Source of the DNA: Micromonospora sp. FIMYZ51 | GTDB taxonomy: Bacteria > Actinomycetota > Actinomycetes > Mycobacteriales > Micromonosporaceae | DNA length: 64,000 bases | Direction: 5' to 3' | Assembly: GCF_038246755.1 (NCBI RefSeq) | Contig: NZ_CP134706.1 | Span: 3,100,001-3,164,000 of the forward strand | Shown here: positions 2,579-20,467 of the stretch, in pieces | Layout: the number at the start of each line of letters is the position of its first letter | Position numbering within the stretch: position 1 is the first letter of the stretch | The notes under the pieces: generated by a model | Told to the model about the DNA's origin: nothing | Database searches by the model: none | Seen by the model: only the letters and a program-made list of their open reading frames with translations | Position numbers and translations under genes: made by a program

Positions 2579-5500
2579 TCAGCCGGGAAAGAAATGACCT
2601 ACGTCGATATCACAATCCTTCATGATTGTTTCGCTGTCAACAAAAGTCTCAGTGGGTGAGGCCGACGAGGACGTGTCGGGCAATGCGGGAGGCAGGTCCG
2701 GCTCGATGAGGTGATGCAGCAGGTGCAGCGGCGCGGCGACGATCCCGGCCCCGGCCAGCGCCCGCACGTACGCCGTCGCGGTCGAGTCGTCCACCAGACC
2801 GTGCACCAGCGGCAGCTCCGGATCGGCCGCCCACAGCAGCGATTCCAATCGGCAGGAGGCGATCGTCGCGGGCAGCCCGAGCACGGTGCCGGTCACCGGC
2901 ACCGGCGGTAGGTCTGCTGGTATGTCGCGCCTGGTCTCGCCGACGTGCAGCAGTCCACCGCCGACCACCAGGATGTCGCGGTCGCGACGCATCCGGGTCA
3001 GCGCCAGGCCGGTGTCCAACGCGGGCGGGAACGAGTCGTCCACCACGATGGTGCCGGGTGCCAGCCGGTCGACCTCGATCGGGTCGGTGGCCGCGCTGGT
3101 GGCGGCGATGACCACCTCCGCCGCGTAGCCGGCCGCCGCCATCTGCGGCGTCGACGGGCAGCTCTCGATGCTGCCCGCGAAGCCGTCGGCCCGCAGTCGC
3201 GCGGCGTGCTCGGCCAGCCTCGGGGCGGCGGCCGGGATGTCGCAGAGCACCAGCCGCGCGGGACGTTCCGCTCCGGCCAGCAGCAGCCGCAGCGCGGCGA
3301 ACCCGATCGAGCCGAGACCCACCACGGCGAGAGTGCGGCCGGCAAGGCGCCGTCCGGTGGCGGCCAGCGCGGCCTGCACCGTGCGGACGACGGAGACGAC
3401 GGTGACGGCGTGGCCGGTGGTCACCGCGACCCCGCTGCGGGTACGCCGCAGCACGCCGAGACCGTAGCCGGTGCGGGCGGGAATCATGCCGGCCAGCGAC
3501 ACGCAGCGGGCACCGAGGCGGGCGGCCAGGTCGACCGCCTCGGCCGCCTCGGCGGCGAGGGCGTCCCCGGCGGCGGTCAGCTCGTCGGCGAACCGGGGCA
3601 GACAGACGAAGCCGGAGACGCCAAGCGGGGTGTGCAACTCCTCAAGCAGACGTGCCCGGCCGTCGGGAAAGAGCAGCTCGCGTAGCTGTTCCCGGGGCAC
3701 GCTGCCGGCAGGTGATCCGGCGATCGCGGCGAGCTGCGCCGGTGGCGGTAGGTAGCCGACGATGGCTGCGGCCAACCCGGTTCGCCGGGTAGCAGCAGCC
3801 GAGTCCGCCGGTGCGGTGCGGTTGGTTGCTGCGGCGGTGAGGTCGGCGCGTAGCCAGTCGGCGATCCGAACCAACTCGGCTGAACTCACCGCGTCGGGGG
3901 CGCCGCGCAGGGTCACCCGCAGCCCGTCCGGGCCGGGCCGGGCGGTCAGGAACAGGTCGGTGCCGAGCGGCGGCGCGGCCAGCTCGCTTGCGGCGTCCCA
4001 GTCGAGGCTGAGCTGCTCGGCGTGGTCCGGCGGCGACGACGATGCGGCGAGGGCCGCGAAGTCCAGGAAGCTGAAGAAGAACTGGGCGCCGAGGGGCGTG
4101 CCGGCTGGCCCGGTGGGCACTGCCGCCGCGATGGACGGCGGGTCGTCGTGCCGGCGGGCGGCGGCGACCTCGGTCGCCACGTGGGCGAGCTGTGCGGCGA
4201 AGTCGGCCGAGCCGACCAGCCGCAGCGGCAGCATCGCGGCGCAGGGTCCGAAGACCCGGTGCAGGTCCGGCAGCGGATGGTCCCGGCCGGTCACCGCCAG
4301 GCCGAAGACCAGGTCGTCCTGGCCGGTGAACCGGGCCACCGCCCGGTGGTACGCGGTCAGCACCGGGGCGTACAGGGTGGACGCCGCCTCGGTGGCCAGT
4401 CGGCGCAGCCCGTCGAGCACGACCCTGTCCAGGGTGAAACCGCAGACCGGGCCAGCCGTACCGGCCGCGTCGGCTGCGGTGGGGCGGGCGGCGAGCAGCG
4501 GTGGCCGGTACGGGGTGGCGAAGCGTCCACTCCACCAGGTGTGGGCGGTCGGCTCGGGCGGGCCGGCGGCGCGACCGGCAAGCAGTGCGACGTACTCCCG
4601 GAAGTGGATGCGCAGCGGAGGCAGGTCACCGGGCAGGTCCGCGACCAGCCGGTGATAGACCGCCAGCAGTTCCTGGCCGAACAGGGCGGCGCTGTAGCCG
4701 TCGCCGATCAGGTGGTGGGCATGCACCAGCAGGATGTGATCGTCCGGCGCGAACGCCAACAGCCGCAGTCGCAGCAGCGGCCAGGCCCACGGCTCGAAGG
4801 GGCGGTGGCGTTCCTCGGCGACCAGGGCGGCGACCTCGGCGGAGTCGGTCACGGTCTGGTAGCCGACCGGTAGCCGCAACGACGCGGGCAGTTCCTGCTG
4901 GACCGGGGGACGAGCCCCGGCGGGGAACACGGTACGCAGCATCGGGTGCCGAACGACCAGCAGGTCGACGGCACGCTGGAAGACGTCGCGGCGCAGCTGG
5001 CCGCGCAGTCGCAGCCGGGCCAGCCAGGCGGTGCCGGCGCCTGCGGCGATGGCGTCGGCGAGCAGGAAACCACGCTGGGTGGCGGTCACCGGGTACGGTC
5101 CGCCCGGATCGCCGTGCGCCGCCGCAGCGCCGTCCACGTCCGGGCCGGCGACCCGACTCGTACCGGCGGCGCTGCGGTCCGTGCCGGCGGTGCTGCGGCC
5201 GGAGCTGCGGGCCGTGGCTGCGGCGGCGTCGATCTCGGCGGCGAGCGCCCGCAGCGTGCGGTGCTGGTAGCTGACGGTCGGGCTCGGCATGGCCGGGAAC
5301 TGGTGCTGTGCGCGGGCAAAGACCTCCAGCACCAGGATGGAGTCGCCGCCGAGGGCGAAGAAGTCGTCGTCGGGGGCGACCGTCGGCAGGTCGAGCAGTT
5401 CGGCCCAGATCCGGGCCAGTCTCGTCTCGGTCCCGGTGTCTGCGCCGGCACCGGCCGCCGTGCCACCGGGTGCCGGCAGCTGCTCCGCAGCGGCGGGCGC

Positions 5501-8500
5501 CGGCTGCTCTGGAGCGGCGGACGCCGGAAGGTGTTCCGGAGCGGCGGACGCTGGGGCCTGCTCCGGATCGGCGGACGTCGAAAGGTGCTCCGGATCGGCG
5601 GCGGGTGGGAGGCCGCCGAGGGCGCGGAGGCGGTCCCGGTCGACCTTTCCGGTGGGGGTCAGCGGGAGGCTGTCCAGCAGGTGGATCCGGGCCGGGACCA
5701 GCTGCGCGGGCAGCCGGTCGGCGAGAAACTCCCGCAGCTGCGACGCGGTCGGCGCGGTTTCCGGTACGGGGGCGACGAAGGCGTGCAGTCGCGGGTGCGG
5801 CTCGGCCTGGTGCAACACGGTCGCGGCGGCCACCGCCGGATGGGTACGCAGCACCGCCTCGATCTCGCCCGGCTCCAGCCGATAGCCGTGGATCTTCACC
5901 TGGTCGTCGAGTCGGCCGAGGAATTCCAGGCAGCCGTCCGGGCCGACCCGGCCCCGGTCGCCGCTGCGGTAGTACCGCTCGCCGTCGTGGTGCCCGAAGG
6001 CGGCGGCGGTCAGCTCGGGCTCGCCGAGGTATGCGGGCGTGAGGCCGACGCCGCCGATCAGCAGTTCACCGGCCTGGCCGGGCGGGCAGGGGTGCCCGTC
6101 GGGGTCGACGACACGTACCCGCGCCCCGCCGACCGGTCGACCGATCGGCAGCCGGCGTACCGCGTCGTCGGGCCGGCGGTCGATCAGCTGCCAGCTGGCG
6201 TTGATCGTGGCCTCGGTCGGACCGTACAGGTTGGTGATCGAGCAGCCGTCGCCGAACAGGTCGAACCAGCGCCGCACCGGCACCGGCGACAATTCCTCCC
6301 CGCCGACGTGCACCCAGCGCAGGGCGCTGAGATCCGGTGGTACGCCGTCGCGTACCGCCCGGTCCTCGGCGGCCCGCAGAATCCGCTCCCACAGGGTGGG
6401 CACCGAACTCCACACGGTGAGCCGGTCCCGTTCCATCCGGGACAGCAGCGCCTGCGGGTCACGCAGCACCGACCGGCCGAAGGTGACCACGGTGGCACCG
6501 ACGAGCAAGGGTGCCAGGATCTGCCGGACCGAGGCGTCGAAGCAGATCGACGAGGTCTGGGCCAGCCGGTCGCCGGGCCGGTAACCGAACGTGTCGATCG
6601 CCCAGTCGAGATAGTTGACCATCGACCGGTGGGTGATCGGTACCCCCTTCGGCCGTCCCGTCGACCCGGACGTGAAGATCACGTACGCGGTGTCGTCCGG
6701 CGCGGCGACGATCGCCGGCACCTGGACGGGCACCTGCTCCGCCGGCACCGTGACCGGCCGGTGCTCCGGGTCCGAGCCGAGACGGACCGGGCGGACCGCA
6801 CCGGTCAGCCGCGCCACCGTGGCCGCACAGTCCTCGTCGTACAGCACCACCTGGGCCCCGACCCGGCGCAGTTGCTCGTCGAGGCGGGCCGGGGGATGGG
6901 CGGCGTCCAGCGGCACCCAGGCGGCACCGGCGCGCAGGATCCCGACCACCGCGACGACCGACCCGGGTCCGGGCGCGGTGAGCATCCCGACGTGCTGGCC
7001 CGGGCGTACGCCGTGGGCGGCGAGCAGCGCCGCCACCCGGTCGGCGGCCCGGTCCAGGTCCCGGTAGGTGGTCGACCGCTCGCCGTCGCTCACCGCCACC
7101 GCGTCCGGGGTACGCCGGCAGACCGCCCGGATCCGCGCGTTGACATCCACTGCGCCGGCCAGCGGGCGGAGCGGTTCGAGCGGTCCCGGCCGCTGCTCCG
7201 CGACGTCCACCGGCCGAGGCGCGGCGGCGTCGGATGGGCGGTCGGCGGCGAGATCGACAAGTTCCCGGTGGTGCTCGGCGGCGAGCCGGGCCACTGTCCC
7301 GGGTCGGAACAGTCGCAACGGAAAGTTCCAGGACAGCCGCAGTGTCGGGCCCGACTCCCACCAGAGCAGGCTGAGCTGGGTGGCCGCCGAACCCGAGCCG
7401 GCCGCCGTCGGGACGACCCGCACCGGGGCGTCCGGGTCCGTGGTGACCGGGAAGCGGGCGAAGCTGAACCCGGCCGGGCTGGCGGTACGCGGACCGTCGC
7501 CGCTCGGCCGCAGCAGCCGAGCCAGGTCGAGGCTGGACACCGAGCCGTGCCGCTGGGCGGTGGTCCAGGACTGCCGGAGCCGGTCGGCCAGCCGGGCGGC
7601 GGGCTCGGCTGGATCCACCTCGACCAGCAGCGGCAGGGTGTCGGCGAAGGGCCCGACGATCCGCTCGATGCCGGGCAGCCGGGCGTCACGACCGGCCCGC
7701 GCCACGCTCACCGGCACCCGCAGCTGCCCGCTCCACCGTGCCAGGCACCGGACGTAGCCGGCGAGGAGCAGGTGAAACAGCGAGACGCCGGCCTCGGCGG
7801 CCCGCTGCCGCAACCGGCCGACCAGCTCCTCGTCCAATTCGTCCAGGTGCCGCAGGTACGGCGGCGCGGGCAGACTCGCCGGGTCGCCGTCGTACGGCAA
7901 CCGCAGCCGCCACCCGGGATCGGCCAGCCGCTGCCGCCAGTACGCCAGGTCCGCCTCGGTCGGCGGGGCGGCACCGAGGGCGTACTCGGCGAAGCCGGGG
8001 CCGGCGGGCGCGGGCGCCACCTGGCGACCTCGCGCCAGCGCGGTGTAGTCCGCCCAGAGTTCCTCGCTGAGCTGGTTGAGGCTGGCACCGTCTCCGGCCG
8101 CGTGGTGCAGCACCAGGAGCAGGTGAGACCGGTCGGCATCCTCCCGGGCGAGCACCGCACGCAGCGGCGGTTGCCGGGTCAGGTCCACCGGCGTGTTGCA
8201 GAGCCGTTCCTCCAGTTCGGGGAGGGGGTTGGTGAGCGGCTGCACCTCGTACGCGATGGCGGCCCCGGCGGCGGACGGTGGGCGGACCAGCTGACGTGGG
8301 GTGCCGGCGCCGGCACCCGGCACGAACCGGACCCGCAGCATCGGATGGCGGTCGGCGAGACCGGCCAGGGCCCGGCCGAGCAGGTCGGCGTCGAGCGGCC
8401 CGGTGACGGTCTGCCGGACGAAGGCGTAGCTGGCCACGGTCGGGTGCAGCCGTTCGTTGACGTACCAGGCCCGCTGCACCGGGGTGAGCGGGAAGGGTTC

Positions 8501-11500
8501 CCCGTGGGTGATCGGCGCCACCGCCTGCGGTGTCGTCGGCGGCGCGGCCTGCGGAACCGGCGGCACCCCGCCGCCGGGCGGCACCGCACCGCCGTCCGGC
8601 GGCGGCGCGGCATCGGCCTGCGTCAGGTGGGCGGCGAGCGTGGCGACGGTGGTGTACTCGAAGAACAGGGTCACCGGCAGCTGCCGACCGAGTTCGTCCT
8701 CCAGTCGTTTGACCAGGTCCACCGCGGCCAGCGAATCCAGCCCGAGGGCGAGGAACGAGACGTCGTCGGCGATCTCCTCGCTCGGCCGGTGCAGCGGCTC
8801 GGCGAGCAGCCGGCGCAGCAACCGGGCCAGCTCCGCCGCCTCCGGCCGACCCACTGCTGGCCGACCCGTCTCCGGTTGATCCGACACCGGGTGCCCGGCG
8901 GTCGAGCCGACCGTTGCCATGGCGGCCGAGCCGGCGGCCGAGCCGATGGTTGCCCTGGCGTCCGGCACAGCGAGCGGACCGGCGGTGGCCGGGGCAGCGG
9001 TCCGGACGGTACGTGCCCGATGCGCCGTCAGGTCCGCGACGACCAGGTGGGCGGCGTCGACCTCACGGGCGAGCCAGAGGGCACGCAGCGCGTCCCGGAC
9101 GGTCAACCCACCGCTGGCACCGCTGCGGGCGGCCATGCCACGGTCGGTGATCGCGCCGAAGCCGACCGCCTGGACGGGCTGGCCGGCGGCCCGCTGCGCG
9201 GCGGCGAAGGCGTCGAGGAACGCGTTGCCGGCCGCGTAGTCGCCGATCGCACCGGCCATCCCGGGCAGCACCGCGCTGACCGAGGAGAAGCCCACAAGCG
9301 CCGCCCGGTGCTGGCCCCACCGTCGCAGCGCCTGCGCCAGCAGGTGGCTGCCGCGTACCTTGGGCGCGAGCACCGCCAGGATGTCCGGGACGGACTTCGC
9401 CGCCAGGGTGCCGATCCGCACCGTCCCGGCGGCGTGCCAGACGGTGTCCACCCGGGACAGCTCGGCGAACAGCGCATCGACGTCGGCCGGCACGGTCACG
9501 TCGCAACGCCGGTACGTCGCGTCGGCGCCCGCCGCGATCAGCTCCGGCAGAAGGCCGTCCGGGGCGCGCTCCGACCGACCGGCCAGCAACAGGGTGGGCC
9601 GGCCCCGGCGGGCGAGCGTACGGGCCAACTCGGCACCGATCCCGCCGCCGCCTCCCACGATCACGTGCACACCGTCGTCAGTGGACGAATGCGACGACGG
9701 CGATGGGGCGGGCGCACCGGCACCGGAGAAGTCTGTGGGATCGGCCGCCGGGACCAGGTGCCGCGCCAGCCGGCGCCCGGCCCGCCAGGCCACCCCGGTC
9801 GCGGTGGTTACCTCGGTGCGGCTGTCTCCGGCCGTGGGGTCGTCGTCGAGTCGCAGGTCGGACAGCTCCCGGCACACCGACTCCACCCGGACCGCCAACT
9901 CGTCGCGGCCAGACAGATCGATCACCCGGGTACGCAGGCCGGGGCGTTCGTCAGCGAGGGCCCAGCAGAGTCCGGTGAGCACCGCCTGCACCGGCCGGTG
10001 CCGCTCCGACGCCCCGGTGACCTGCACGTCCTCGGTGAGCACCAGCAGCCGGCCGAGCCGCCCGTCCGGCTCGTCGAGCAGGGTCCGCAGGGCGCGTACC
10101 TGCCCGGTGACGGCGGCGTCGAGGGCCGCCACGTCCGGCGGGTCGACCGCCGGCCCGGCGAGCAGCACGGTCACCTCCGGCGGCGCGAGGTCGTCGGCCG
10201 CTCCGGGCGTGACGTGCCCGGCGTCGGGGTGCCCGGACGGCTGCACCGTGACGCCGCGTGCGGTGAGCGTGGCGGCGAGCCGGGCGGCCAGGTCACCGTC
10301 GACGCCGGGTCCACACAGCCGGATCCGGGCCGGCAGTTCGTCGCCGAGCACCGGCGCGTCCCGCCAGGCGATCCGGTGCAGCGGTACGGTCCGAGGTGCC
10401 GGCGACGGCGGGTAGGACCGCCGCTGGAACGGGTACGTCGGCACCGGCACCCGCCGCCGACCGGCGTACAGGGCGGCCCGGTCCAGCGGTCCACCGAGGG
10501 TCCACAAGCGTCCCACCGCCGCCAGCAGCGCCCCGGTCGCGGCACCCGGTTCGGCGGCCAGCAACGGCAGCACGCGCACCGGACCGGCGTCGCACCGGCC
10601 GCCGGTACCCAGGTCGAGGACGACGTCGTACGCCCCGTCGGGCATCGACCGGGGCGGGGCAGGCAACCGTGGCCCGGTCGTCGCGGCGCGTCGGACCGCC
10701 TCGGCCGGGTCCAGTTCACCGCGTACGGCGGCTGCGGTCAGTGCGCCGACGCCGGAGCCGAGCAGCCCGTCCGGACGTACCCCCCAGGCGGTGAGTTGGC
10801 CGGCCAGGGCGACGCCGACGGCGACCGCCACCGCTGCCGCGACCTGCGGTTCGGCGGCCGAATCGGTCAGGCACCAGGTGTGCAGCGGGCGTCCCGCCAC
10901 CGGCGTGGCGGCGACCTCGGCCAGCAGGTTGCGGAAGACCGGCAGCCGGTCGTGCAGGTCGCGCACGGCAGCCGCGGGCAGCGTCGTGCCGTCGTCCGGG
11001 AAGACGAGCACGGTCCTCGGTCGCCGGCCGACCGGTGCCTCGCCGAGGGTGTCGGCGGCGGCGTCGAGCCGGTCGGCGAGGTCCCCGTCGGCGACCACGG
11101 CCAGCCGGTGCGGCCCGTCGTCCCGGGCGGTACCCGCGCTGGCGCAGACGTCGGCCTCGGCGAGTTCCGGGTGGGTACGCAGGTACGCGGCGAGGTCCCG
11201 GGCCGCCCGGCGCAGCGCGGCGGGCGAGTACGCGCTGAGCGTGGCCAGTTGGCAACCGGAGCCGTGCAGGTCGGCCGCGACCCGCGTCGGGCGTGCCTGC
11301 GGTGCCTCGCGCAGCACCGCGTGCGCATTCGTCCCGCCGAAGCCGAACCCGTTGATGCCGGCGAGCAGCGGGCCGGCGGCGGTCCACGGCCGCCCCTCGG
11401 TGACCACCGCGAAGCCGGCCGCGGCGAGGTCGAAGCGGGCGGCCGGACGGGTGTGGTGCAGCGAGGGCGGCAGGTACCGGTGCCGCAGCGCCAGCACCAC

Positions 11501-14500
11501 CTTGACCAGCGCGGGCAGCCCGGCCGAGTTGAGCAGGTGGCCGAGGTTCGTCTTCACCGAGCCCAGCCCGCGCGGCACCCCGTCGGCCGGCGGCGGGTAC
11601 GCCGTGGCCAGCGACCGGACCTCCACCGGGTCACCAATTTCGGTGCCGGTGCCGTGCGCCTCCACGTACGACACCTGCGCCGGGTCCACCCCGGCGTCCC
11701 GGTACGCCCGCGCGATCACCTCCCACTGCCGGTGTGGGTTCGGCGCGAGCAGGCTCAGCGAACGTCCGTCGTTGCCGACGGCGGTCCCGGCGACGACGGC
11801 CAGCACCGGGTCGGCGTCGGTGTGCGCGTCGTCGACGCGGCGCAGCACCAGCGCGGCGCCGCCCTCGCCGGGGACGAAGCCGTCGGCGGCGGCGTCGAAG
11901 GCGCGGCACCGACCGGTGGGGGAGAGCGCCTCGGCGGCGGCGAGCACCCGGTACCCGGTCTCGGTGAGGTTGAGGTTCACCCCGCCGACCACCGCGACGT
12001 CGCACTCCCCGGCGGCCAGGCTGCCGGCGGCCAGGTGCAGCGCGACAAGCGCCGACGAGCAGGCGGTGTCCACCGCCACCGCCGGCCCGGTCAGGTCCAG
12101 GGCCTGCGCCAACCGGGCCGGGATCAGGTTCCGCAGGTTCCCGACAAGTGCCGCCGCCCGATCGACAGCCGTCCCGCCGGCGGCCAGCAACTCGGGGTAG
12201 GCGCTCTCGCCGACGGCGGCGAAGACGCCGATCCGGTGACCGTGCCGGCGGGGTCCGGCGTATCCGGCGCGTTCCAGGGCCTCGTACCCGATCTCCGCGA
12301 AGAGCCGGGCGTGCGGGTCGGTGAGCCGGGCCTCCTGTTCGGTGAGCCCGAAGAACCCGGCATCGAAGAGCATCGGGTCGGTCAGGAAGGAACCCCACTG
12401 TGGGCCGTGCGCGGTCGGGGCCCAGCGGTGGGCGGGGACCGGGGTGACGGCGTCGACGCCGTCGACCAGCTGCTGCCAGAACTCCTCAGGGGTGTCCGCG
12501 CCCGGGAACCGGCAGGCCAAACCGATCACCGCGACACCCGCCCGGTCGACGTCGGTGGTGCTGCGGGTCGGCTGCGGTCCCGCCACCGGACCCGGGTCGC
12601 CGAGCGGTCCGGCGGCGAGCCGGTCGGCGAGCGTCGTGACGGTGGGGCAGTCCCGCAGGTCCGCCGGATTCAAGGCGGTGCCCAGGGCGTCCTCCAACCC
12701 GGCGAGCACCTCCATCGCCTTCAGCGAGGACCCGCCGATGCTCAGGAAGCGGTCGTCCGGGCCGATCGTGGCCGGCGGCCGGTCCAGTACCCGGGCCCAG
12801 ACCTCGCGGATCAGCCCTTCGAGTTCCGGCCGGGACCGCCCGGCCGCGCCCGGCGGCAGCCGGGGTACGGCGACCGGCGCACGGTGGACCGGCGGGCACC
12901 AGCGCCGCTCCCGGTCGGCGAAGTCGCCGGTCAGATACCGCTCGCGCATCCGGCGTCGGCGCAGCTTTCCGCTTGTGGTCCGGGCGAACGCGCCGGGCGG
13001 CAGCGGCAGCACCCGGACGTTGTCGTGGCCGCTTGCCTCGGCGACCCGTCCCCGCACCGCGGCGAGGACGTCTGCCGCGTCGGCCGGTGGGCGGGCCCAC
13101 GGCACGAACACCACGATCCGCTCACCGCCGGAGGCCGGGTCGGTCGCGCCGACCACCACGGCCAGGTCGCCCGGCAGGCCGGGGGTGGCGACGGCCACCG
13201 TCTCCAGGTCCGCGGCGTGGAAGGTCCGGCCGTTGACGAAGACCACGTCCTTGGCCCGGCCGGTGACACAGAGCCGCCCGTCGCGCAGGAAACCCAGATC
13301 GCCGGTACGCAGCCAGCCGGCCACGAAGGTGTCCCGGCTGGCCTGCGGCGCCCGGTGATAGCCGCGCGCCACGTTCGGGCCGCGTACCTCGATCTGGCCG
13401 ACCCGCAGCTCGGGCAGGGGCCGGCCGTGCTCGTCGACCACGCGCAGCGCGCAGCCGGTCACCGGGCGGCCCAGGTCCATCAGCTCGACCGCGTGCTCAC
13501 CGGGCATCGTGGACGCCGCCCGGCCCCGGCTCAACTCGGCGCGGTCGAGCACCAGCGGGACGGCCACCTCACCTTGCGGTGTGAAGGTCACCGCGAGGGT
13601 CGCCTCGGCGAGCCCGTACACCGGTCGCAGCGCGGCCGGGTCGAGCCCGGCCGGTCGGGTGTGGGCCAGGAAGGACCGCCACACCGTCGCCGAGATCGGC
13701 TCGGCACCCACCACCACGCACCGCACCGCACTCAGGTCGAGCTTGGCGAGGGTTCCGGCCGGCACCCGGCGTACTGCCAGGGCCAGCGCGAAGTTCGCCG
13801 CCGACAGCAGGGTGGCCCGATGCCGGTGGGCGGTGGTGAACCAGAGCGCCGGGCGCTTGGCGAACGCCAGCGGGCCGATGCGTACCTGCTTGAGGCCGAC
13901 CGCGAGTGGGGTCAGATGGGTGCCGATCAGTCCCATGTCGTGGAAGTACGGCATCCAGGTCACCAGCACGTCGTCCGGGCGCGCACCGCTGGCCACTCTG
14001 GCCTGCTCCAGGTTCGCCAGCACGTTGTCGTGGGTCAGCTCCACCCCGCGGGGCGCGCCGGTGCTGCCGGAGGAGAACTGGAGGAAGGCGACGTCGTCCC
14101 CGGCCGGCGTCGGCAGCTGCGGCGGTGCGGTCCCGGTGCGCAGCGCGGCCAGCCGCAGCACCGGCGCGGGTAGGCCGTCCGTCACCGGGGCGGTGGCGTC
14201 GTCGGTCACCACCACCGCGTCGGGAAGACTGTCGCGCACCGCCCGTACCCGATGCGGCTCGGGCGGCAACGGCACCGGCACCAGCCCGGCGGCGAGCGCA
14301 CCCCAGAACATCGGCTGGAAGTCGTGGCCGGCGTCGGCGAGCAGCAGCGCGGGCGTGCCCGGCGGCACCCCGGCGGCCCGGTAGCCACCGGCCACCCGCA
14401 GCGACTCGTCGCGCAGCTGCTGGAAGGTCACCGTACGCTCGGTGCCGTCCTCCGCGACGTGCACGATGACCTGGTCAGGCGACCGGTCGGCGGCACCGAG

Positions 14501-14551
14501 GAGTACGTCGAGCAGACCTCGGCGGGCACCCGGCCCAGTCGCAATCGGCAC
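2579..14551 (-). CDS. Hybrid FAAL-PKS-NRPS megasynthase with AAR-like reductase release domain
   Basis: A 3990-residue protein starting at GTG 14551; an in-frame TAG lies four codons upstream. Domains seen: fatty-acyl-AMP ligase (about 1-560, SSGSTG near 157); ACP with Ser609; KS (about 670-1095) with Cys831, a His near 967 (AHGTGT) and a His near 1005 (TNLGH); a short AT-like region (about 1178-1380) whose GHSxG motif reads GSGVG, so the nucleophile is Gly1267; KR (about 1390-1830) with GGGGGIG and Tyr1772; ACP with Ser1940; condensation domain with His2150 in HHAAGDG; adenylation domain (about 2470-2975); PCP with Ser3071; a second condensation domain with His3280 in HHLIGDG; then about 350 residues resembling acyl-ACP reductase, with VVGLGSIG near 3743 and Cys3900. 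Inference: a free fatty acid is activated, possibly extended by a ketide, joined to an amino acid and released reductively. The substrates are unknown. Confidence 0.93.
5477..5602. repeat. Degenerate 24-30-base repeat in the A-PCP linker of the megasynthase
   Basis: Five imperfect units on the minus strand encode Ala/Pro/Glu-rich blocks such as SAAPEHLPA between the adenylation domain and the PCP (Ser3071). It looks like an expanded flexible linker that could let the carrier protein reach two condensation domains and the terminal reductase. Confidence 0.6.
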
Positions 14552-14624: not shown

Positions 14625-17441
14625 TCAGTCCCGCGTCGGGTCGTCGGTGCCGGCCCGGCCGAGTCGCGCGAGCCGGCTCCGGGCGTCGTCGGCGGCGGGA
14701 TCCCCCAGGTCGTCGTAGATCAACGCGGCCAGGCGCCAGGCCGCCGTGGCGGCGGCGGTGTTGCCCATCACGGCCCGGGTGTCGCCGAGCCGGACCAGGG
14801 TCTCCGCCTGGTGGTAGCGGTCGGCGGAGGCCCGGAACAGCTCGACGGACCGCTCGTAGCAGGAGACGGCCCGGTCGTGCTCGCCCAGCCCGTGGTACGC
14901 GAAGCCGAGACTGTCCAACGTCGCCGCCTGGCCGTTGTGGTCGTCGATCAGCTGCTGCTGGGCCAGCGCCTCCGTGCAGTCGGCGATGGCCTGCCGGTGG
15001 TCGCCCTGCACGGCGTGGATGAAACCGATCGCGTTCAGCGTCCGGCCCTCGCCCGCCCGGTTGCCGGCCAGCCGGTACAGCCGCAGCGCCTCCCGGGCGT
15101 GCGTCAACGCCTCGTCCCGCTGGCCGAGAACGAAACAGTGCTCGGTGTAGTTGTGCAGGGTCTGCGCCAGCCCGGCCGGGTCGTCGAGTTGCTCGTACAG
15201 CTTGATCGCCCGCTGGAGGCGCTCACCGGCGGTGTCGTACTCGCCCAGCCGGTAGGCGGCCCGGCCGAGCAGCCGGTTGGCCGTGGCCTGCGCTTCCAGG
15301 TCGCCGAGGCGTTCGGCCGATTCGAGCGCGGCCTGCTGGGCCACGAGCTGGTCCTGCCAGAGCCCCCGGGGCGCGAGGAAGGTGGTCAGCGCCCAGGCGA
15401 GCTGCCAGGCGTACCCGTCGAAGCCGGTCGCGGTGGCCTGCCGGATCACCCGCAGCAGCACGAGACGTTCCGCCGCGAACCAGGCCAGCGCGGCATCCTG
15501 GTCGGCCATCGGTACGTGCGCGTTGTCGGCGCGGGCCGGCACCACGGTGACCGGTGACCACTGGGGCTGCACCAGCCGGCCGGCCGGATACGCGCTGTGC
15601 AGGTAGTGGTCGTAGAGGCGGTGCAGGGCCTCGTGCCGCTCGTCGGCGTGCCCGGCTTCCTGGGCCAGCTCGGCCGCGTAGGAGCGCAGCAGGTCATGCA
15701 GGGCGTACCGGTCGGGTTGGTGCTCGGTCAGCAGGTGCGACCGGGTCAGTTCGTTGAGGACCGGGGTGAGCGCGGCCCGTGGCCGGCCGAGCAGCGCGGC
15801 GGCGGCGGATCCGCTCAGCTCGGGCCCCGGATGCAGGCCGAGCAGGCGGAACAGGCGCGCCGCGTCCGGGCTCAGCGCCGCGTACGACCAGGAGAAGACC
15901 CGCCGCACGTCGCCGTCGGCCAGGATCTCCAACCGGGTCTCCGGCGCACGCAGCTCGGCGGCGATCGCATCGAGCGGGAAGCGGGGTCTGGTGGCCACCC
16001 GCGCGGCCACGATCGACAGGGCGAGCGGAAGGCGACCGGCTGCCTCGATCATCTCGGTCACGGCGGCCGGCTCGGCGTCGAGGCGGTCGCCGATCCGGCC
16101 GCGCAGCAGGTGCGTCGACTCGGCGTCGGTAAGCACGTCGAGCGCGAGCAGTCGGGCACCCTCGGCGGCGACCAGGCTGCTGAGCTGGTCCCGGCTGGTC
16201 ACCACGACGACGCACCGGCCGGCGCCCGGCAACAGCGGCCGTACCTGGCCGGCGTCGCGGGCGTTGTCGAGCACGATGAGCATCTCGCGGTTGGCCAGCA
16301 GGCTGCGGTAGAGACCGGTCCGGGCGTCCGTGCTGCTCGGCATGCGGGCCAGCGGCACGTCCAGCGCCTCGAGGAAACCGAGCAGGGCGTCGGCCGGGGA
16401 GACCGCCTCGCCGTCGTCGTACCCGCGCAGGTTGACGTAAAGCTGCCCATCCGGGAAGCGATCCGCCACCCGGTGTGCCCAGTGCAGCGCCAGCGCGGTC
16501 TTGCCGACGCCGGCCATCCCGCAGATCGCGGTGATGACCACGTTGCGTGGCCTGCTCGCCACCGCTTCCACTGCGGCGTCGAGGCGGTCGAGCTGCGCCT
16601 GCCGGCCGACGAAGTCGGGCGTGGCAAGCGGTAGCTGGGCCGGGCGGGTGCGGCCCCGGCCGGTCGTCCGATTGTCGGAACGCGGCACCGGCCCGGCGGG
16701 GACGGAACGGTGGTGCAGGATGTCGTCGTGCAGGCGGGTCAGCTCGGGTCCCGGGTCCATCCCGGTCTCCTCGGCGAGTACCTGCCGGGCCTGCCGGAAG
16801 GCCGCCGCCGCCCCAGCCACGTCACCGCTGTGATAGAGACCCGTCATCAGCTGCGCCCACGCCCGCTGCCGTAGCGGATGCCGTTCGAGCAGGCCGCGCA
16901 GCCTGGGGATCACCTGCGCGTACGCGCCGAGCGCGAGCTTCGCGGCGGCATGCTCCTCCTCGGCCAGCAGCCGCCGTTCGGTGACCTGCTCGGCCCAGCG
17001 GGACAGCGGCCTGGGCAGCGGCAGTCCGGCCAGCGCGGGGCCACGCCACAGGGCCAGCGCCTCGGCCAGCTCGGCCTCGGCCAGCGCGGGATCGCCCTGG
17101 GCCAGAGCGTCGCGTCCGCGGGTGGCTGCGGTGTCGAACCGGTCGAGGTCGCGCTCGTCCGGCTCCACTCGCAACAGGTAGCCCCCGGCGGTGGTGACGA
17201 TCCGCCCGTCATGGTCGAGGGCCTGCCGCAGTCCGCGCACGTAGGTGCGGATGTTGGCCCCGGCCGACGCCGGTGGCTGGTCGCCCCAGAGCGCGTTGAC
17301 CAGCTCGTCGGTGCATACCGCCTCGCCGGGGCGGGCCAGCAGCAGCGCGAGCAGCAGCCGTTGTTTCACCGAACCGAGTTCGACCGCACGGCCGTCCCGG
17401 GACACCGACAACGGGCCGAGGAGATCGAAGCGGAGCAGCAT
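14625..17441 (-). CDS. SARP/AfsR-family transcriptional regulator with NB-ARC and TPR domains
   Basis: A 938-residue protein from ATG 17441. The N-terminus is an OmpR-type winged-helix domain (about 1-90) followed by the bacterial transcriptional activation domain (about 95-240). A STAND/NB-ARC NTPase follows, with a P-loop GMAGVGKTA near residue 305 and LIVLDNARD near residue 385. The C-terminal third (about 690-910) holds helical TPR-like repeats. This is the AfsR layout known from Streptomyces, where such proteins activate antibiotic clusters after an NTP-dependent or signal-dependent switch. It ends 73 bases before the megasynthase start on the same strand, so it is probably co-transcribed with it or its direct pathway-specific activator. 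Confidence 0.93.
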   Translation of the reverse strand: MLLRFDLLGPLSVSRDGRAVELGSVKQRLLLALLLARPGEAVCTDELVNALWGDQPPASAGANIRTYVRGLRQALDHDGRIVTTAGGYLLRVEPDERDLDRFDTAATRGRDALAQGDPALAEAELAEALALWRGPALAGLPLPRPLSRWAEQVTERRLLAEEEHAAAKLALGAYAQVIPRLRGLLERHPLRQRAWAQLMTGLYHSGDVAGAAAAFRQARQVLAEETGMDPGPELTRLHDDILHHRSVPAGPVPRSDNRTTGRGRTRPAQLPLATPDFVGRQAQLDRLDAAVEAVASRPRNVVITAICGMAGVGKTALALHWAHRVADRFPDGQLYVNLRGYDDGEAVSPADALLGFLEALDVPLARMPSSTDARTGLYRSLLANREMLIVLDNARDAGQVRPLLPGAGRCVVVVTSRDQLSSLVAAEGARLLALDVLTDAESTHLLRGRIGDRLDAEPAAVTEMIEAAGRLPLALSIVAARVATRPRFPLDAIAAELRAPETRLEILADGDVRRVFSWSYAALSPDAARLFRLLGLHPGPELSGSAAAALLGRPRAALTPVLNELTRSHLLTEHQPDRYALHDLLRSYAAELAQEAGHADERHEALHRLYDHYLHSAYPAGRLVQPQWSPVTVVPARADNAHVPMADQDAALAWFAAERLVLLRVIRQATATGFDGYAWQLAWALTTFLAPRGLWQDQLVAQQAALESAERLGDLEAQATANRLLGRAAYRLGEYDTAGERLQRAIKLYEQLDDPAGLAQTLHNYTEHCFVLGQRDEALTHAREALRLYRLAGNRAGEGRTLNAIGFIHAVQGDHRQAIADCTEALAQQQLIDDHNGQAATLDSLGFAYHGLGEHDRAVSCYERSVELFRASADRYHQAETLVRLGDTRAVMGNTAAATAAWRLAALIYDDLGDPAADDARSRLARLGRAGTDDPTRD

Positions 17442-19054: not shown

Positions 19055-19228
19055 CGCGCCTCCTGTCAGTGCCGCACCGACGGGCCCCGAAAGTGTACGC
19101 GGGAAAGTTTTGGTCGGCTTGCCCGTCGCCGGTGAACCAGCACCCGTTCAGCGCCGTCATGAGGGCGTGCAACTGCTGCGTACGTTCGCGGACCTCGTGC
19201 GTCCGCTGCCAGGCCGATGGAGGGCTTG

Positions 19229-20467
19229 ATGACACTGAGCACCGTTTCGTCCCCGATCCGGCGGGCCTTCACGAGCACGAGAGTCGCGCTCCTCACCGTC
19301 GTGGTGCTCGCGCTCGGCCTGATCGTGGTCATGTCGAGCAGCTCGGACGCCGTCGCCGGGGAGCGGGTGACGTTCGTCAACGCGACCGGTGAGACGCTCT
19401 GGGTCGGTGCCGGGGAGAGCGGAGACGGCTCGCGCCCGATCACCGGCCTGCCCGTCCTGCGGCCCGGTGAGTCGAAGACCATCGTCATCCCCGACGACGG
19501 TCATCCGGGCCATTGGCGCGGGCGGTTCTTCGCCCGGCAACGCTGTAGCGGCGAGCCGGGCAGCACCTTCAGCTGCGTGGTGGGGGACTGCGGTCCCTTC
19601 CCGGACCGCTGTGAGCGGGGCGCGGAGCCGGTGAGCCTGGCCGAGTTCAACTTCGACCAGCACAACCCGGCGGCTCCCTGGTACAACGTCAGCTACGTCG
19701 ATGCCCTGTCGGTGACGATCACGATCGACGCACCCGGTGGTGCCAATCCGCTGGCCGGCAGCTGTGTCCGGTGGGACTGTTCGGGCGGGCAGCTGCTCGC
19801 CGCCTGCCCCGAGGCACACGCCGTACGCGATCCGGGTCGCGGTGACCGGGTGAACTGCGTCAACCCCAACCGGGACGCGGAGAGCGCCTACACCGCCGCC
19901 CTGCGCCCCTTCGGCGCTCGGGCCTACCTGTGGTCCACGCACGACAAGGTTCCCGGCAACGAAACCGTCTTCGCCTGCCCCGGCTGCGCGGACTTCGTGG
20001 TGACCTTCCGCAACGGCGGCGCCTCGGCGCCCCGGCCCGCCGACCAGCCCGTCGCCGACCGGCCCGACCCGCAGCCAGGCGGCGGCTTCGCCCTGCGCGG
20101 GTACGTGAACAAGTGCGTCGACGTGCCCGGTGGCGTCTCGGCCGACGGTGCCCAGTTGCAGCTCTGGAAGTGCAACGGCACGCCGGCACAGCGGTTCGCG
20201 CGGGGACCCAACGGCTCGCTGGTGGCGCTCGACAAGTGCATGGACGTCGCCTGGGCGTCGCGGGACAACGGGGCCAAGGTGCAGCTCGCGCACTGCAACG
20301 GCGGCCCGGCGCAGGTCTGGGTCGTCGAGCGGGAGATGGTGCGGAACCCGCATTCGGGCAAGTGCCTCGACGTACGCGACCGCAACCGCGGCAACGGCGC
20401 CCCGTTGCAGATCTGGCAGTGCGCGCCCGGACAGGACAACCAGACCTGGCGTACGGTCGGCCGCTGA
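19229..20467 (+). CDS. Secreted thaumatin-like protein fused to a ricin-type beta-trefoil lectin
   Basis: The ATG at 19229 was chosen over the in-frame ATG at 19217 because GGAGGG lies four bases upstream. An N-terminal hydrophobic helix gives a signal peptide or anchor. Residues about 45-250 match a thaumatin-like domain: an NATGETLWVG start, a GRFFARQ segment, many paired Cys, LAEFNFD, and a YNVSYVDAL segment corresponding to the family's YDVSLVD motif. A Pro-rich linker is followed by a ricin B domain (about 285-412) with the trefoil CVDVPGG / CMDVAW / CLDVRD repeats and QxW motifs. Thaumatin-like proteins in plants and fungi bind or cleave beta-glucans; ricin-type lectins bind galactose or xylose polymers. 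Inference: an exported glycan-binding, possibly antifungal or wall-active, protein. Confidence 0.85.
   Translation: MTLSTVSSPIRRAFTSTRVALLTVVVLALGLIVVMSSSSDAVAGERVTFVNATGETLWVGAGESGDGSRPITGLPVLRPGESKTIVIPDDGHPGHWRGRFFARQRCSGEPGSTFSCVVGDCGPFPDRCERGAEPVSLAEFNFDQHNPAAPWYNVSYVDALSVTITIDAPGGANPLAGSCVRWDCSGGQLLAACPEAHAVRDPGRGDRVNCVNPNRDAESAYTAALRPFGARAYLWSTHDKVPGNETVFACPGCADFVVTFRNGGASAPRPADQPVADRPDPQPGGGFALRGYVNKCVDVPGGVSADGAQLQLWKCNGTPAQRFARGPNGSLVALDKCMDVAWASRDNGAKVQLAHCNGGPAQVWVVEREMVRNPHSGKCLDVRDRNRGNGAPLQIWQCAPGQDNQTWRTVGR

Follow-up and report, generated by a model that had tools for sequence, protein, structure and literature searches.

A TAD-like terminal domain of the acyl-ACP reductase superfamily as the probable off-loading domain of an actinobacterial PKS-NRPS megasynthase

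How a megasynthase without a thioesterase lets go of its product is the question raised by one gene in the window, that is, the whole stretch of 64,000 nucleotides of Micromonospora sp. FIMYZ51 analyzed here (contig NZ_CP134706.1, positions 3,100,001 to 3,164,000). The gene codes for a polyketide synthase-nonribosomal peptide synthetase (PKS-NRPS) of 3990 residues, in which Pfam searches at E values of up to 0.1 found neither a thioesterase nor a reductase of the NAD_binding_4 type. This agrees with the initial annotation, which had seen no thioesterase and no standard reductase (R) domain at the C terminus and had proposed an acyl-ACP (acyl carrier protein) reductase (AAR) that releases a lipopeptide as an aldehyde. 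The terminal domain is a member of the AAR superfamily, and its nearest relative is the TAD of the carmabin pathway, an acronym that we read ourselves as referring to a terminal-amide function. Very probably it acts as a TAD-like off-loading domain that carries the chain as an acyl-Cys, a prediction made from sequence. The gene and the parts of it that carry this argument are the following.

2579..14551, minus strand: PKS-NRPS megasynthase, 3990 amino acids (open reading frame [ORF], Pfam, NCBIfam)
2702..3772, minus strand: TAD-like (AAR-superfamily) terminal domain, residues 3594-3950 (similarity, alignment, trees)
3302..3319, minus strand: dinucleotide loop G-L-G-S-I-G, residues 3745-3750 (alignment)
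2852..2854, minus strand: Cys3900, aligned with SeAAR C294 and carmabin TAD Cys2238 (alignment)

Nearest relatives of the terminal domain

In a phmmer search with the single sequence, the best solved relative was the "TAD from Carmabin Biosynthetic Pathway" (E value of 7.7e-31), with PigE at 0.0007 and no AAR chain among the structure chains up to an E value of 1. A profile built from 10 synthase domains gave 2.1e-52 for the TAD and 0.0015 for the reductase SeAAR. The carmabin TAD (PDB 9e4s, 9e4u, 9e4x, 9e50, and 9e56, solved for residues ∼1967 to 2297) is likewise part of an NRPS protein, named "amino acid adenylation domain protein," and the match to it spans residues 51 to 357 of the window domain. 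Both share the motifs TTGH, GLGS-V-G, LCD, and VDDS-x-P and the active-site Cys, while the TAD has a Ser where the window domain has the Glu of C-x-x-E. SeAAR (model TIGR04058) has the same superfamily fold, the pair C294/E297, and the dinucleotide loop, but it is a stand-alone enzyme, reads TTGN in place of TTGH, and has Arg189 and Arg314 in columns that are changed in the window.

The motifs named in the initial annotation lie where it had put them (SLAGM at 3685, TTGHAVT at 3711, VVGLGSIG at 3743, and the Cys of CRLES at 3900), and its SeAAR strings agree with the chain as printed by HMMER, which contains ALGGF, TTGNTHTAYVICRQVEAAA, VVGATGDIG, and ACFAE. Its superfamily fold, active-site Cys, and terminal place have stood, whereas AAR as the nearest family has given way to the TAD, which is much closer. 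The extent of ∼350 residues after the last condensation domain also stood, except for the last ∼36 residues of the protein (nucleotides 2582 to 2690), a tail without counterpart in nine other aligned synthases.

The structural comparison that the annotation had suggested places model residues 119 to 275 on TAD residues 2042 to 2198; the model is poor (mean pLDDT of 46.8, built from two sequences), and its Rossmann core alone was used. In the TAD chain T138 is residue 2042, an offset of 1904. The Cys in the alignment is number 334 of the chain and hence Cys2238, so that Cys3900 occupies the place of SeAAR C294 and TAD Cys2238. The latter is the residue trapped with dephospho-CoA, and by their titles the PDB entries of the carmabin TAD include complexes with NAD and NADH.

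Four other assignments were tried and rejected. Classical AAR as the nearest family fails at 15.3 bits (TIGR04058, E value of 0.0091) against a curated cutoff of 449.7 bits, with the TAD much closer and the arginines changed. The SbnB/ornithine cyclodeaminase type reached 28.4 bits (E value of 8.1e-07) in NCBIfam, where PigE (NF053554) matched residues 58 to 277 of the C-terminal piece at 50 bits (E value of 1.5e-13, single sequence). For 2-hydroxyacid dehydrogenases, the sole Pfam match of this 398-residue piece, 2-Hacid_dh_C, stayed below the threshold (E value of 0.036), and a standard R domain or thioesterase is discarded on the Pfam result given above.

Active site and cofactor site

We aligned 24 synthases, 5 TAD-type rows (the carmabin TAD and the loci L113 to L116), and 11 AAR-type rows. 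The column of Cys3900 is Cys in all of them (24/24, 5/5, and 11/11). The Cys is also kept in 86 loci, several of which repeat one genome (80 by pattern, L062 by inspection, and L113 to L117 by reading). Five loci missed by the motif pattern (L061, L067, L068, L078, and L122, the last outside the 24 aligned synthases) keep both the Cys and the Glu and have STG or TSG for TTG. Every homolog examined retains the Cys and the nucleotide loop, and the best match is an AAR-superfamily domain rather than some other Rossmann family, as the initial annotation had expected.

The NADPH that the initial annotation had assumed finds no support in the cofactor site. In SeAAR, Arg189, Arg193, and Arg314 hold the NADPH phosphate (PMC7089970, in excerpt). 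The R189 column is V, L, I, or A and the R314 column is L, P, or T in all 24 synthases. Just ahead of the R189 column stands an Asp (D3771) that is invariant in the synthases (24/24) and the TAD-type rows (5/5) and absent from the AAR-type rows (0/11). An Asp after the second strand is the usual mark of NAD(H) sites.

By a strict column count with five gap columns excluded, eleven columns of the synthases are TAD-type and two are AAR-type (P3604 and E3903), both absent from the TAD-type rows; a looser count gives 30 TAD-type, 11 AAR-type, and 23 common columns. The domain is thus a mosaic, nearer TAD than AAR. As cofactor-site residues of the TAD type are mixed here with the Glu of AAR, setting the domain against SeAAR and the carmabin TAD would reveal the residues that direct release toward an amide or an aldehyde.

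An unrooted tree separates the 24 synthases, four TAD-like rows, and the carmabin TAD from AAR, PigE, and nine AAR-like proteins with support of 100/100, a split that, with three clades, does not show which two are sisters. L113 branches with the carmabin TAD at 95/62, where two long branches meet. A more distant relative, L117 (a 461-residue frame with Cys-x-x-Glu and TTGH), falls outside both the TAD-like and the synthase clades and may be an intermediate type.

Architecture of the megasynthase

Pfam and NCBIfam on the 3990-residue ORF give the order fatty acyl-AMP ligase (FAAL), ACP, ketosynthase (KS), degenerate acyltransferase (AT), ketoreductase (KR), ACP, condensation (C), adenylation (A), peptidyl carrier protein (PCP), second condensation domain (C2), and TAD-like domain.

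12917..14551, minus strand: N-terminal AMP-binding domain of FAAL type, about residues 1-545 (NCBIfam PRK09192, residues 38-545)
11105..12535, minus strand: KS, residues 673-1149, active site VDTACSS (Pfam, motif)
10679..10834, minus strand: AT remnant, Pfam match only to residues 1240-1291, GSGVG at the place of GHSxG (Pfam, motif)
9146..9673, minus strand: KR, residues 1627-1802 (Pfam)
8624..8821, minus strand: second carrier, residues 1911-1976, GLDSL (Pfam, motif)
7496..8494, minus strand: first C domain, residues 2020-2352 by Pfam, HHAAGDG (Pfam, motif)
5645..7126, minus strand: A domain, residues 2476-2969, specificity residues DARSHGLINK (Pfam, code)
5237..5449, minus strand: third and final carrier (PCP), GGDSI, approximate boundaries (Pfam, motif)
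3842..5104, minus strand: C2, intact HHLIGDG, after the final carrier and before the terminal domain, approximate boundaries (Pfam, motif)
2582..2660, no strand given: low-GC 3' tail of the megasynthase gene, outside the terminal domain (GC, alignment)

All 24 aligned synthases keep the KS Cys and the HHxxxDG motif of each condensation domain. The adenylation code, whose positions we take to follow GrsA numbering, is DARSHGLINK in 22 of the 24 and DARSHGLVNK in the other 2; the pocket includes an Arg and a His, and its substrate is perhaps acidic. The AT of the window has decayed to GSGVG although KS and KR are intact. GHSxG is present in 12/24 synthases, so AT seems to have been lost within the family, and its loss in the window suggests help by an acyltransferase in trans. 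In the 23 synthase rows in which both motifs were found (L129 was unmatched), C2 is never followed by a carrier before the terminal domain begins. The final ∼26 codons of the gene have a GC content of 45.6%, compared to 74.7% in the terminal domain, and look like a recent foreign stretch.

Release of the product

The domains predict the following path. The chain would be built as an acyl-(ketide, reduced)-aminoacyl intermediate on the third carrier and passed from there to Cys3900, next to bound NAD(H). It would leave most probably as an amide, and not as a free carboxylate, with ammonia attacking either the acyl-Cys or an aldehyde-level intermediate made from it. C2 may supply an amine or alter the chain while it is still on the PCP. 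Taken as a whole, a TAD-like off-loading domain with an acyl-Cys3900 and, most probably, an amide as the product is the best explanation that we can offer, at about even confidence. Once off-loading through such an acyl-Cys is granted, the amide is mildly favored, an aldehyde or alcohol is unlikely, and any other outcome would be considerably more surprising.

The amide is suggested by the systems in which such domains have been described. VatR and HcaD, of the vatiamide and hectoramide B pathways, have a cyanobacterial "amidotransferase" domain that replaces the thioesterase, which we liken to the window domain by its description only (PMC10949194, in excerpt). The HcaD domain follows a PCP, is 83.5% identical to that of VatR, and is believed to release its chain by amidating the end; the terminal amides named are dragonamides, carmabin A, and vatiamides E and F (same excerpt). 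Fusion to an NRPS, for which the initial annotation knew no example, therefore has precedents in the carmabin, vatiamide, and hectoramide proteins (PDB entries above; PMC10949194, in excerpt). In the open-license literature we found no paper on the TAD structure or on an NRPS-AAR fusion, which is no proof that none exists. Excerpts of PMC9594044 and PMC8341465 were also drawn on.

Several points weigh against amide release or against the kinship with the TAD. Terminal amidation is itself a hypothesis in the excerpt of PMC10949194, where the enzymology is called unstudied and ammonolysis is proposed, and four of the five TAD-type rows (L113 to L116) have no assigned reaction. The vatiamide and hectoramide proteins have a PCP directly before the domain, while the window has a condensation domain in between, for which reason we say "TAD-like" and not plain TAD. 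The R193 column is still Arg in 22 of the 24 synthases, and the Glu of the AAR-type C-x-x-E is kept in 24/24 synthases and 11/11 AAR-type rows and is absent from the 5 TAD-type rows. An NAD(H) site would neither prove an amide nor exclude reduction, because PtTamH is described, in the excerpts used, as an NADH-dependent thioester reductase. Among the 19 neighbor ORFs, 10 of them without a Pfam family, Pfam recognized no ammonia-supplying gene. Last, when the tree was rooted with a glutamyl-tRNA reductase outgroup (11 of the 24 synthases and five glutamyl-tRNA reductases, L138 as the sixth outgroup row being left out), the grouping of synthases and TAD reached only 71/82, and the alternative of synthases with AAR was not rejected (p-AU of 0.06). 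As this rooted test is weak, the claim of kinship rests on similarity and diagnostic residues, again in keeping with the name "TAD-like."

The rival that survives best, although we consider it rather unlikely, is the reductive release of the initial annotation, in which the acyl group moves onto Cys3900 and is reduced by NAD(P)H, and the resulting aldehyde might go on to be cyclized or transaminated. The fold, the Cys, and the C-x-x-E kept in every synthase as in AAR all favor it, and so do the AAR-superfamily thioester reductase domains of two natural-product enzymes, PigE (N-terminal) and PtTamH (C-terminal), reported in the excerpts used to turn thioesters into aldehydes, PtTamH with NADH. 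For purified PigE, however, the same excerpts report that no use of NAD(P)H was seen, and these domains are fused to aminotransferases, whereas that of the window sits on an NRPS. PigE falls with AAR in the trees, which covered PigE but not PtTamH; the nearest relative is the TAD and neither AAR nor PigE, and two of the three NADPH-phosphate arginines are gone. Pfam recognized no aminotransferase or aldehyde-using gene in the 19 ORFs, a neighborhood that is partly read since 10 lack a family. With the nearest described relatives linked to terminal amides (as said, a hypothesis), an aldehyde is not the best-supported product, but its release stays a live rival.

Amide and aldehyde chemistry could also be combined. 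In a redox-neutral amide synthase, NADH would reduce acyl-Cys3900 to an aldehyde-level species, to which ammonia, or an amine delivered by C2, would add, and NAD+ would regain the hydride to leave the amide. We regard this as a speculative and quite unlikely scheme. If true, it would explain an amidating domain with an aldehyde-making fold and would release a single conserved lipo-amino-acid amide, so far undescribed, that is the product of a single-gene pathway found in about one-seventh of the sampled genomes (44/300 in the window's family and 38/295 in a genus that is probably Streptomyces).

Improbable, in our judgment, is a C2 that is itself the release catalyst, joining the PCP-bound chain to a free amine and leaving the TAD-like domain as a docking or regulatory remnant. 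Terminal C domains that use free amines exist, and the intact HHxxxDG in 24/24 synthases and the lack of a carrier after C2 in the 23 rows measured would suit such a role. Nevertheless, the TAD-like domain keeps its Cys, its nucleotide loop, and 53 columns shared with the TAD-type rows (30 TAD-type plus the 23 also common to AAR), which argues that it is functional. It is very improbable that the terminal domain is a nonenzymatic Rossmann domain (structural or a cofactor sensor) and that a separate thioesterase frees the product: the megasynthase has no thioesterase domain by Pfam and discrete thioesterases exist in such bacteria, but Cys3900 is equivalent to the CoA-trapping Cys2238 and is kept across the family.

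Distribution of the synthase family

The domain is single copy in the genome of the window. The search for other carriers that the initial annotation had suggested revealed like synthases in many genomes of the window's family and of genus g27, which is probably Streptomyces, judged by an S. fungicidicus domain (L007) among its tree rows. Among 300 genomes of the family, 48 carry the domain, 44 of them in open frames of at least 3500 residues; among 295 genomes of g27, 48 carry it, 38 of them in such frames. The remaining carriers in both groups are shorter frames, fragments, or relatives. A close locus with a species name is that of Micromonospora echinofusca (73% identical). A sample drawn across the phylum gave matches in 25 of 296 genomes; the close ones are the window's own genome and three of g27, and the other 21 are frames of 281 to 436 residues, AAR-like where read. 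Scans of viral contigs and phage records yielded no extra homolog. Another set, L013 to L031, consists of stand-alone AAR-like proteins of ∼360 to 400 residues where read, from distant members of the Actinomycetota, most of which have small genomes; their matches to TIGR04058 reach E values as low as 1.5e-37.

An NRPS-borne domain of the TAD type is already known, and the synthase appears to be a common actinobacterial variant with an architecture of its own, of which we found no description in the open-license literature searched. What seems to be new is the C2 that separates the TAD-like domain from the last carrier, the kept AAR-type Cys-x-x-Glu, and the near-invariant adenylation code. A release chemistry that we found described only for marine cyanobacterial NRPSs would now extend to actinobacteria. 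With a common family and a building-block code that hardly varies, many strains may share a single product or a small set of closely similar products.

Other carriers of the domain

Domains of the TAD-like type are found in cis and may also act in trans. In L113, from another genus of the window's family, it ends a C-A-PCP-TADlike protein of 1501 residues beside a second NRPS protein; it stands at the NRPS C terminus as in the window, but directly after the PCP and with Cys-x-x-Ala. L115 and L116 have a stand-alone TAD-like gene beside two acyl-AMP ligases, and the neighbors at L116 also include a GcvT-like protein, a pyridoxal phosphate (PALP) enzyme, and a flavin adenine dinucleotide oxidoreductase. 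ABC transporter genes are near L114 and L115, and the same genes seem to recur at L114 to L116, judged by sequence starts. A plasmid of Pantoea stewartii (L133, 11827-13116) has a TAD-like gene, annotated as a hypothetical protein, in a ketosynthase-NRPS cluster, flanked by a MupA-type luciferase-like monooxygenase and two NRPS genes. On a Streptomyces plasmid (L134, 11806-13002), a stand-alone TAD-like gene is near an acyl carrier protein and a ketosynthase gene.

Gene neighborhood

Neighbors were compared among eight loci (seven synthase loci and one window flank) with simple GC-position gene calls and flanks of mostly a few kilobases, and among the eight loci listed no neighbor ORF matched more than six of the others. 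Adjoining the megasynthase is a possible pathway regulator.

14625..17441, minus strand: BTAD-type (SARP/AfsR-like) regulator, 938 amino acids (Pfam)

Its long matches (65 to 82% identity) are at only two of the eight loci, both of the same genus (L035 and L036). A Pfam family was assigned to 9 of the 19 ORFs of the window and one flank and not to the other 10. Those on the window side are a subtilase, the BTAD regulator, lectin and thaumatin-like proteins, and a second subtilase; those on the other flank are a helix-turn-helix regulator, an acetyltransferase, a glyoxalase-like protein, and a family 10 glycosyl hydrolase. As Pfam recognized no further biosynthetic gene among the 19, the pathway looks single-gene; it is an orphan and widespread.

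Directly downstream of the megasynthase (3-2441) lies a subtilase with a P-domain, the C-terminal end of which has a repeat of 15-bp units (21-196) encoding Thr-Pro runs. At 19217-20467, one ORF of 416 residues combines thaumatin-like and ricin-type lectin domains and is 88% identical to an ORF of L033.
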